Shown: positions 869 to 35,857 of the stretch, piece after piece
Numbering within the stretch: the stretch's first letter is position 1
Layout of the letters: the number at the start of each line of letters is the position of its first letter
DNA from: Candidatus Methanovirga australis
GTDB lineage: Archaea; Methanobacteriota; Methanobacteria; Methanobacteriales; Methanobacteriaceae
Reading direction: 5' to 3'
Assembly (NCBI GenBank): GCA_031272765.1
Contig: JAISTD010000224.1
Coordinates: 1-36,408 of the forward strand
DNA length: 36,408 nucleotides
The notes under the pieces: model-generated
Seen by the model: the letters and a program-made list of their open reading frames with translations, nothing else
What the model was told of the DNA's origin: nothing
Databases searched by the model: none
Position numbers and translations under genes: made by a program

Positions 869-1009
869 AATAACACTTTATTTTCCCATATTTTGGCTTG
901 ATGAACTTTCACTGAACTAAGTGAGAAACTTAGGAACTGAAGGTTTTGGTTTATTTGAATAGAGTTGAACAGAGTGAGAAATTTAGGAATGAAATTCTTG
1001 TTAAAGTCT

Positions 1010-3934: not shown

Positions 3935-4196
3935 GAATGTACTTTTGTTTTTTTTAATTAATAAATCTTATTATAATATGTTACTAATTAAATTAAAAAA
4001 ACTGGATTATTATAATAATAAACTTATTATTAGTGTTTTGCAAAATTAATTATTTTGAACTTAACTAAAAAATGGAATTTTTTTTAATTTTTTTTAACTT
4101 GATTAAAATTCTTAAATTTCATTTTAAATTATTAAAATTACATTATTTTTTTATAAATAATCTTATAAAAATTAATTTAATAAAATAAACTTATTA

Positions 4197-5267
4197 TTTA
4201 TAAAATCTCTGATTTTATAAATATTAAAAATCTTCGATTTTGTAATATTAATGTTTAATTTATATTTTATAGATTAATTATTAAACTTTTTTATATTATT
4301 AAATTCCAAAAGTTTATTTAAAAAATAATTGAATATCCAGAAATAAATATACAAAACACTATAAAAAAGAATAAAAAAGAAGTTTTTAATAAAGCTTCAC
4401 AAAAAAATTACTTAAAAAAGAGGAATCATCAAATTGAACATTCACGATAAGATGCAGAATTACTATCAAATATCTAAAATATTTTAAAGTTTAAATTTAA
4501 TCTTTTTAAACAAGGTGTCTGATTTTCATGAAAATTTCATCAGATTTTTGAAAGTATTTCCACATAAAGGATCATTAAATTCAAAATAAAAAAAAATTTT
4601 GAATTAAAGAAAATAAAAAATTTTCTAAGTTAAAACAAGTTTTAACTAAAGAAAAACTTCGCTTTTCTAAATTACAAAATCAGAGATTTTATAATTAAAG
4701 AAAACCATGAAAATTGAAAAACCTCCACAACTTCAGTTTCCGTTTGTTTTGAAGGTCGTGGGAAACTTAGGAGACGAAGTCTCCGTTGTTGAAGACAACT
4801 TAGAAACTGAAGGTTCCTTTTGTTTCGAATGAAATGAGAAACTTAGGAGAATCTTTGATTCTCTGTTTATTCTCAAGCGAAGCATGAGAATTTAGATAAT
4901 CTTTGATTTCGAACAGAGCGAGAAATTTAGGATAGAGTTTCCGTTAGTTTTGAATGAAATGAAAAACTTAGGAAAATCCCTGATTTTTCGTTGTTCCGAA
5001 CAAAGTGAGGAACTTAGTAAACGAAGTTTACATTATTTTCGTTTATATAAAAACATGATTTTCATGAAAACCTCCACACTTTTTGACATATCTCATACTA
5101 TATAACAACATTTATATACTATCACAAACTATGTTAATATGTGAGTTTCATAAATTACCAAAAATTTTTAATTTTTGTAATTATGAAAATCCAAAGGATT
5201 TTCAGTATTTATAACTTTTATCAAAATATGCTATTTTTTCTGAAAGAAAATTAGAAGACAAAGTCTT
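4197..5267. repeat. Array of short variable-stem hairpins with 2-3-nt loops
   Basis: E.g. TTTATAAAATC-TCT-GATTTTATAAA (4197-4221), AGTTAAAAC-AA-GTTTTAACT (4628-4647), GGAGAC-GAA-GTCTCC (4770-4784), GAGAATC-TTT-GATTCTC (4847-4863), GTAAAC-GAA-GTTTAC (5017-5031), TGAAAATCC-AAA-GGATTTTCA (5184-5204), AAGAC-AAA-GTCTT (5255-5267). Confidence 0.8.
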
Positions 5268-5335
5268 TGTTTTTGATAGGTTAATAGAAACTCTCATTAG
5301 TAAATATTTGTCAATGTATGCCCCCAATTCAAATC

Positions 5336-12159: not shown

Positions 12160-12225
12160 ATGATACCCAAAAAAATAATCTCAATAGCCATATTCAGCCA
12201 AAACTTTTAGAAACAGAAAACAGCA

Positions 12226-12285
12226 GAAACCTCGTTTCATAAATTTCTCAATTCCTTTGAAATCAAAGATTTTCCTAAATTGTTC
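12226..12285 (-). repeat. Outlying, inverted copies of the variable-stem hairpin unit
   Basis: GAAAC-CTC-GTTTC (12226-12238) and GAAATC-AAA-GATTTTC (12259-12274), each with AAATTTCTC/CCTAAATT lead-in on the opposite strand. Confidence 0.6.
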
Positions 12286-12433
12286 ATTTTGTTCACAACA
12301 AAAGTTTGATCAAAAACATTTTATAGATAGAATATAGAATTAAATTTTACTCAATTTTTTCTAAAAAAAATTGGACTTAAATTTTATAAAGAAAAAATAT
12401 ATAAACCTAACTATGAAATATTAAATACAAATG

Positions 12434-35030: not shown

Positions 35031-35148
35031 GATTTGTAATTAAAAAAGTTTAATATAAATGAGTATCAAACATAGTATAATAAAAAAGGAGAAATATAAC
35101 TCTACCAACTGTAAATATAAAAAAAATTTATATATGGGGCTGGTACTA

Positions 35149-35457
35149 ATGACAACAGTTGAAATAGAACCAAAATTATTAAAAAAAATCACTAAAATAG
35201 CTAAAAAAGAAAATAAAACAGAAAACAGTATTATAAACGATGTACTGAAAAAAGGATTGGAAAACAGGGAAAGTAAAGAAGTTGCTTTTGCAAGAATGGA
35301 ACGATTAACTAATGGAAAAATAAAAATACTTAATAAAGACACTTATAACCCTAATCCTACTGATGAGGAATTAAATTCAATAGTTGGAATAGTTAAAGCA
35401 CCAAAAGGAATAGATCCTGTTAAAGCATTGCTTGATTTAAGAATGGGAAAGGATTAA
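35149..35457 (+). CDS. VapB-like antitoxin
   Basis: MTTVEIEPKLLKKITKIAKKENKTENSIINDVLKKGLEN…; RHH-like N-terminus, 4 nt upstream of the PIN gene. Confidence 0.75.
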   Translation: MTTVEIEPKLLKKITKIAKKENKTENSIINDVLKKGLENRESKEVAFARMERLTNGKIKILNKDTYNPNPTDEELNSIVGIVKAPKGIDPVKALLDLRMGKD

Positions 35458-35461
35458 AACT

Positions 35462-35857
35462 ATGATATTTGTAGATGCGAGCTTTTTAGTAAGTTTAATC
35501 ACTAAAGAACCAGGATCTTATGATAGAGCTATCGAATTATGGGAGAAAAATAAGCATGAAGACAAGCTAATTACTCCTTCTGTTATTAGTGAAGTCATCA
35601 ACACTTTAAATGTTAGATTAAAAGTGGATATAGAATTAATTGATTATGCTTGTGAATTTATGCATGATAATTTAGTAATAACCGATGATTATGAATATCA
35701 TGTTGGTGCTGTAAAGAATATTAAATCGTTCCAGCCTTCAAGAGTACCTTTTTTTGATTGTTTATATATGAATGTAATGGAAGAGTTGGGAATAAAAGAA
35801 ATATTATGTTTTGATAAACATTTCGACTTAAACAAAAACATAAAAAGAATATACTAA
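35462..35857 (+). CDS. VapC-like PIN-domain toxin
   Basis: MIFVDASFLVSLI…ITPSVISEVINTLNVRL…FFDCLYMNVMEELGIKEILCFDKHFD. Confidence 0.88.
   Translation: MIFVDASFLVSLITKEPGSYDRAIELWEKNKHEDKLITPSVISEVINTLNVRLKVDIELIDYACEFMHDNLVITDDYEYHVGAVKNIKSFQPSRVPFFDCLYMNVMEELGIKEILCFDKHFDLNKNIKRIY

Follow-up and report, generated by a model that had tools for sequence, protein, structure and literature searches.

The window, that is, the whole stretch of 36,408 nucleotides analysed here, belongs to Candidatus Methanovirga, a termite-gut relative of Methanobrevibacter; the first-pass annotation had proposed a search in Methanobrevibacter genomes, a genus to which the host does not belong in the strict sense. 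Methanovirga comprises uncultured archaea of lower-termite guts, some of them living inside flagellates, according to passages in PMC10684969, PMC13135261 and PMC11287868; keyword searches of these three papers returned no mention of repeats such as those described below. The genome of origin (G000; 2.44 Mb in 236 contigs) was searched with patterns and models, and the stretches around the matches were compared. Genome G002 was taken as the sister species, Ca. M. procula, and G020, a relative rich in the elements, probably comes from a cultured isolate. The assemblies are for the most part fragmented MAGs.

At 35059-35857 the window encodes a 132-aa antitoxin-like protein (weak RelB-like match) and, after it, a 131-aa protein to which no NCBIfam family matched; the two are probably a toxin-antitoxin pair. 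The segment 19797-22259, which contains several short ORFs and in part resembles locus L108 of G002 (89% along about 1.2 kb), looks like a decayed transposase region.

The ten mini-hairpins reported at first reading between 4197 and 5267 are all present in the sequence, with small shifts for two: the frame of the one at 4221-4250 is about 1 base off, and the perfect core of the one at 4972-4989 is AAAATC-CCT-GATTTT, at 4973-4987. The non-coding gap in which they lie does not hold a single array, as had been proposed, but several elements in both orientations, and the same family is found elsewhere in the window, at 895-1005 and, on the minus strand, at 12200-12316. No Rfam 15 family matches the window above its gathering score. 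The features are as follows.

895..1005, plus strand: second, two-unit element, TTGATGAACTTT ...; units at 906-950 and 961-1002 (R1 E=9e-5 and 0.0024; R2 895-956, E=0.003)
4195..4250, plus strand: two adjoining hairpins with 3-nt loops, TTTATAAAATC-TCT-GATTTTATAAA and ATTAAAAATC-TTC-GATTTTGTAAT (sequence)
4500..4735, minus strand: array of the same grammar (sequence; weak R1 matches at 4649-4683 and 4606-4639 on the minus strand)
4735..5085, plus strand: main mosaic array of hairpin-TTAG-hairpin-GTT units with the terminal outer-arm motif CATGATTTTCATGAAAACCTCCACA (repeats, sequence, fold)
4743..4787, plus strand: unit 1, GTTTT-(GAAGGTCGTGG)-GAAAC TTAG GAGAC-GAA-GTCTC (R1 E=2.4e-8)
4819..4867, plus strand: unit, GTTTC-(GAATGAAATGA)-GAAAC TTAG GAGAATC-TTT-GATTCTC (R1 E=7e-9)
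4903..4945, plus strand: unit, ATTTC-(GAACAGAGCGA)-GAAAT TTAG GATAGAGTTTCC, with the second hairpin decayed (R1 E=5e-7)
4944..4989, plus strand: unit, GTTTT-(GAATGAAATGA)-AAAAC TTAG GAAAATC-CCT-GATTTTTC (repeat family D1; sequence)
4990..5034, plus strand: unit, the best copy, GTTCC-(GAACAAAGTGA)-GGAAC TTAG TAAAC-GAA-GTTTAC (R1 E=2.9e-12)
5184..5204, no strand assigned: TGAAAATCC-AAA-GGATTTTCA, a separate second dispersed hairpin family (by counts)
5219..5283, plus strand: further unit, TTTTCT-GAA-AGAAAA TTAG AAGAC-AAA-GTCTT TGTTTTTGATAGG (R2 E=2.3e-5; R1 E=2e-5)
12200..12316, minus strand: two-unit element with both outer-hairpin arms, TTTTTGATCAAACTTTT ... CTAAAAGTTTTGG (R2 E=1.5e-10; sequence)

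The first hairpin at 4195..4250 is a recurrent module, since TTATAAAATC-N3-GATTTTATAA occurs 14 times among the loci examined in the own genome. The minus-strand array consists of a GTGGAGG..CATGG outer arm, then TTATAAAATC-TCT-GATTTTGTAA TTAG AAAAGC-GAA-GTTTTT, and GTTAAAAC-TT-GTTTTAAC TTAG .... For the main array, the two strands have fold z-scores against shuffles of -5.3 and -5.7 when folded as DNA, and of -5.1 and -4.4 when folded as RNA. The hairpin at 5184..5204 was counted 4 times in loci of the own genome and 14 times in loci of G002, in a scan of both strands in which each site is possibly counted twice; three tandem copies of it, with the flank ATTTTTAATTTTTGTAATTA, lie in an insertion found only in G002 (L214:940-1030).

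Hairpin excess and the repeating unit

The stems far exceed what local dinucleotide shuffles produce: 4197-5267 contains 12 perfect stems of at least 6 bp with a 3-nt loop (1.83 expected), and 4700-5290 contains 8 (0.58 expected); limited to stems with at least two G/C, the same test gives 4 against 0.2. When perfect stems of at least 5 bp are counted over 4601-5290, 3-nt loops are found 11 times against 1.6 in dinucleotide shuffles, 11-nt loops show a weaker excess (5 against 1.56 in shuffles), and 2-nt (1 against 2.0) and 4-nt loops (0 against 1.6) are not enriched; of the loop range of 2-4 nt given at first reading, only 3 nt stands. The other non-coding gaps of the window that were tested have little or no excess of hairpins. 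Dinucleotide shuffling, which the first-pass annotation had named as the null, falls far short of the observed number of stems; the hairpin cluster is therefore real.

The repeating unit is P2-TTA(G)-P3-GTT, about 42-48 nt long and organised in mosaic tandem arrays. P2, as defined by the alignment of copies, is GTTTC/GTTCC/ATTTC/GTTTT-(GAACAAAGTGA)-GAAAC/GGAAC/GAAAT/AAAAC, with an 11-nt loop inside which two covarying pairs can close (AC-AAA-GT, AT-GAA-AT, GC-AGA-GC), adjoining opposed GA/GA dinucleotides. P3 is the second hairpin, following the TTAG linker, and has a 3-nt loop, mostly GAA or AAA, and also TTT or GGA. The shared lead-in GARAAAYTTAG noticed at first reading corresponds to the 3′ arm of the hairpin with the 11-nt loop plus the linker TTAG; it precedes about half of the listed hairpins, and not all of them.

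An alignment of 94 units (A1) bears out the proposal of variable stems in a constant layout, with the linker TTAG in nearly all units. Standard pairs occupy 95.6% of the pair cells, a percentage raised by the choice of units with at least 3 of 5 pairs per stem. Both sides are changed in 150 cells, against 40±5 in shuffled alignments, where the cells are copies rather than independent events and many come from recurrent subfamilies; double changes involve 10 of the 13 pairs, and sliding of the partner columns abolishes the signal. The covariation between copies, as had been suspected, is thus strong. Units of the same array are barely more alike (64.8%) than units of different arrays (60.2%), which agrees with shuffling of the arrays better than with simple tandem duplication.

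The outer hairpin

An outer hairpin, P1, of the form TTTTGAT-CAAACTTTT...AAAAGTTTG, encloses the arrays in its loop; TTTTGAT is a conserved unpaired motif on its 5′ side. Versions of P1 covary (CAAACTTTT/AAAAGTTTG, GAAACTTTT/AAAAGTTTC, GAACCTTTT/AAAAGGTTC, CCAACTTT/AAAGTTGG), and other loci have a second type of outer stem, GTGGAGTTTTTC...CATGAAAAACTCCAC, which the window contains as half-sites. A naive comparison of flank against flank gave no signal for an outer stem (own 18.9, against 18.2), being swamped by AT-rich noise; the stem was established by motif-anchored listing, by a covariance model and by the pair of loci L087 and L073. An alignment of 12 one-module, three-helix elements (A3), which come from the own species, from two further Methanovirga and from two further genera, contains 27 doubly changed cells against 8.8±2.6 in shuffles, and the pair closing P1 is GC in six elements and CG in five.

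P1 is also found bare, without modules (TTTTGATCAAACTTTTTCTAAAAGTTTG), in 30 of the 141 family genomes, belonging to nine genera, with one control match. Bare P1 forms tandem arrays with periods of about 39-45 nt at L240, L255 (1300-1530) and L263; at L255 the repeats stop immediately upstream of an ATG and are possibly read as coding, which recalls the Rickettsia-type palindromes found in proteins.

Two loci of the own genome provide a nearly clean comparison of the two states: L087 (three modules) and L073 (none) have flanks about 90% identical, and L087 equals L073 plus 133 nt, the three modules, placed exactly at the P1 loop; L076, a third copy of this locus, has a bare P1. Given the wide occurrence of bare P1 and the restricted occurrence of modules, insertion would be the more economical direction, but precise deletion of modules could be the source of some of the array/bare pairs.

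Dispersal and differences between sister species

A genome-wide search for the lead-in gave 158 matches in the own genome against 23 for a reversed control. With at most 2 mismatches, the own genome has 115 copies of the lead-in and G002 has 205, but 98 further relatives stay at background or close to it. Among the GTDB representatives, an exact scan gave matches in Candidatus Methanovirga procula and otherwise in a single Clostridium contig (L096), taken as chance; viral contigs gave no lead-in match. A strict pattern combining the lead-in with CGAAG was too narrow, with 9 matches, near the control level.

In the own genome the element family numbers some 100 copies or more. In a strict search, a three-helix covariance model recovered module-bearing elements in 10 of the 141 family genomes, distributed over five genera. 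A larger covariance-model census, in which 150 candidates per genome were scored so that the high counts are lower bounds, found at least 106 in the own genome, at least 135 in G002, at least 95 in G020, 25 in G023, 12 in G027 and 15-30 each in several other Methanovirga; the weak matches of G004 and G007 are possibly bare P1. Elements about 65 nt long, nearly identical and with a common 5′ leader (TAAAAATTTCTAYYTGATTTGGTTTTARTTTTGATAGAACTT), were seen at L187, L197, L204 and L212 of G027 and at L188 of G023; their occurrence in two genera suggests recent transfer or activity.

At about six loci orthologous between the own genome and G002, one species has a whole element that the other lacks (L007/L158, L063/L224, L004/L228, L032/L214, L057/L222, L072/L218). 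What is inserted extends beyond P1 into an AT-rich leader; the orthologous empty sites showed no clear target-site duplication, the outer boundaries of the element being ill-defined. TTTTGAT, conserved in the element, is missing at L158, the one empty site inspected for it. IS200/IS605-derived miniature elements, with which the family was compared here, have subterminal hairpins and insert beside a fixed target of 4-5 nt that they do not duplicate. Arrays that both species share can differ by whole modules, of 42-90 nt (L021/L099, L025/L152, L052/L140); one breakpoint, at L021/L099, falls inside a loop and leaves a mismatched stem. In the near-identical arrays L010/L110, L039/L217, L061/L230 and L053/L215 the differences are mainly single changes that break or weaken pairs.

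Individual alignments of orthologous copies thus reveal mostly one-sided stem changes, a statement that rests on these alignments and not on automatic totals, which were discarded since they include many chance hairpins in coding DNA. Paired substitutions between strains, which had been expected if structure were selected in place, are not the rule among orthologues: paired differences occur between copies and at exchanged modules, and the one-sided changes, together with gain or loss of whole modules, speak against selection of that kind. For the gap of the window itself, the G002 orthologues of the flanking genes are split over two contigs.

Origin of the elements and likeness to known systems

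The elements are probably a lineage-specific family of non-autonomous, nested palindromic mobile ("selfish") DNA and not an RNA gene, a reading in which we have considerable confidence. It builds on what was observed directly: how the elements are constructed and dispersed, how their copies covary, how L087 and L073 differ at the P1 loop, the presence or absence between sister species, the gain and loss of modules and the decay of settled copies. P1 would be the carrier of the modules: double hairpins of about 42-48 nt would enter its T-rich loop and, once inside, multiply, be deleted and be shuffled, giving tandem mosaics with n = 0 to 6. The elements would spread as DNA, and single-stranded hairpins, exposed for example in replication, may be the structure that is recognised or that promotes template switching; every round of copying would then require, or select for, the ability to fold, while copies that have settled decay.

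An intact Y1/RAYT-type transposase was not found. The own genome and G002 contain Y1_Tnp only as interrupted relics with stops, and G020, G023 and G027, all element-bearing assemblies, gave no Y1 match; the assemblies are 67-94% complete, so a Y1 gene has possibly been missed. One relic of an IS200-type Y1 transposase in the own genome (L163, G000:C75:7398-7769) has eight in-frame stops. That Y1 is seen only as relics or not at all would leave another enzyme, an enzyme lost or missed, or host replication and repair as the agent of mobility. The last of these can be taken further: hairpin loops would serve as insertion sites for other hairpins, arms would be recopied from their partners, and P1 would pass to P1 with modules and then to arrays by host replication and repair, with no dedicated transposase. 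We regard this scheme as unlikely.

It is improbable that the family consists of REP/REPIN sequences proper, mobilised in trans by a RAYT or an IS200/IS605-type Y1 (HUH) transposase, with TTAG as the foot tetranucleotide. The first-pass annotation had named REP/BIME-like repeats, and as a kind this is supported: like the bacterial REP/REPIN/BIME with RAYT, the Methanovirga family consists of high-copy short palindromic repeats in extragenic DNA, with a conserved foot tetranucleotide, clusters or mosaic arrays and compensatory changes, which REPINs undergo too (PMC3116915, PMC3733652); moreover, target duplication is not seen, and a past enzyme could have been lost or its gene missed. However, the tag is TTAG and not GTAG or CGTC, and the units are tandem double hairpins of the same orientation, within the loop of a larger hairpin, rather than inverted doublets; the family is also archaeal, has 3-nt and 11-nt loops, and is accompanied by Y1_Tnp in the form of stop-bearing relics (own genome and G002) or by no Y1 match (G020, G023, G027). 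It is not filed as REP because of the tag and the orientation of the units; Y1 is known here from relics, in incomplete assemblies.

The small structured RNAs considered at first reading would require that the arrays be transcribed and that a multi-helix junction be under RNA-structure selection, in a regulatory or architectural role. Strong covariation in the three-helix junction agrees with this, as does the tolerance of G.T somewhat above C.A on one strand: G.T mismatches are 1.46-fold over C.A on the element strand (95% 1.09-2.05, linker G pair excluded), a weak hint of strand-specific single-stranded folding, of RNA or of DNA. A minimal one-module element folds as the junction in RNA too, yet the z-scores of such elements against shuffles lean to DNA (-3.9, -3.4 and -2.1, against -2.5, -1.2 and -1.9 as RNA). 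The arrays are mostly intergenic, and the neighbours of 82 of them, a count that leaves out 30 arrays overlapping predicted ORFs of at least 70 aa and 46 near a locus end, fall into the four orientation classes as 23/22/20/17, with no preference; such even classes argue against terminators, leaders and 3′ UTR elements, and a role of this type was rejected for that reason. The hundreds of copies, mosaic in composition and variable in n, elements wholly missing at orthologous loci, one-sided changes in orthologous copies and the lack of an Rfam match further weigh against an RNA, which we consider very improbable. Neutral replication errors alone, with template switching or snap-back synthesis perfecting and extending quasi-palindromes, unequal recombination amplifying them and no dedicated mobility, would account for perfect arms despite differing sequences, for the break and re-joining inside loops (L021/L099) and for growth at hairpin loops (L087/L073), but they leave unexplained the consensus loops (GAACAAAGTGA), the constant TTTTGAT and TTAG, the transfer to more than 100 unrelated loci and the presence in several genera, and are hardly credible.

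Nested palindromic mobile DNA thus remains our preferred reading, and it finds counterparts in several known systems. REP dimers located in larger palindromes, such as GTAG-15 of Anabaena variabilis, likewise place a hairpin repeat at the centre of a longer conserved palindrome (PMC3733652); in the Methanovirga family, by contrast, the outer palindrome occurs bare across many genera, the arrays are multi-unit and there is no GTAG tag. The mitochondrial double-hairpin elements (DHE) of Allomyces and the RHE of sponges are tandem hairpin pairs, sometimes multiple, which are intergenic and vary between close genomes (PMC2800124); for Allomyces DHE, target duplication was not reported (PMC2800124). 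The Methanovirga family has the same constant two-hairpin layout with differing but paired stems, and the same presence or absence between relatives; unlike DHE/RHE, it lies on an archaeal chromosome, is nested in an outer hairpin and has hundreds of copies with many stems. This likeness, drawn by description, is one of kind and not of descent.

The palindromes of the Volvox carteri organelles are short and short-looped, are often inserted within one another and were judged selfish (PMC2670323); a palindrome within a palindrome is precisely what distinguishes L087 from L073. Their loops are TAAA/TTTA, whereas GAA/AAA triloops prevail in the Methanovirga family, and a grammar of double hairpin plus TTAG was not described for Volvox (PMC2670323). 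The RPE of Rickettsia, as cited in PMC3733652, are palindromic repeats dispersed through the genome of a prokaryote that lives inside cells; according to the same citation they have a CGTC tag and many are in frame in genes, whereas the Methanovirga family is mostly intergenic.

Short hairpin repeats are well known in bacteria, as REPs, and in organelles; in line with the statement made at first reading, no archaeal family of such a layout was found in Rfam or in the open-access papers searched, so that an earlier description has possibly been missed. The Methanovirga elements apparently represent a previously undescribed family of nested palindromic mobile DNA in archaea. Living genomes preserve its intermediate states, from the bare outer hairpin to one module and to arrays, together with a near-clean pair of before and after. 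The amplification peaks in a genus found in part within the flagellates of termite guts, in parallel with the hairpin repeats of organelles and of Rickettsia, and through this parallel the question of how such elements are copied while their stems stay paired could become testable.
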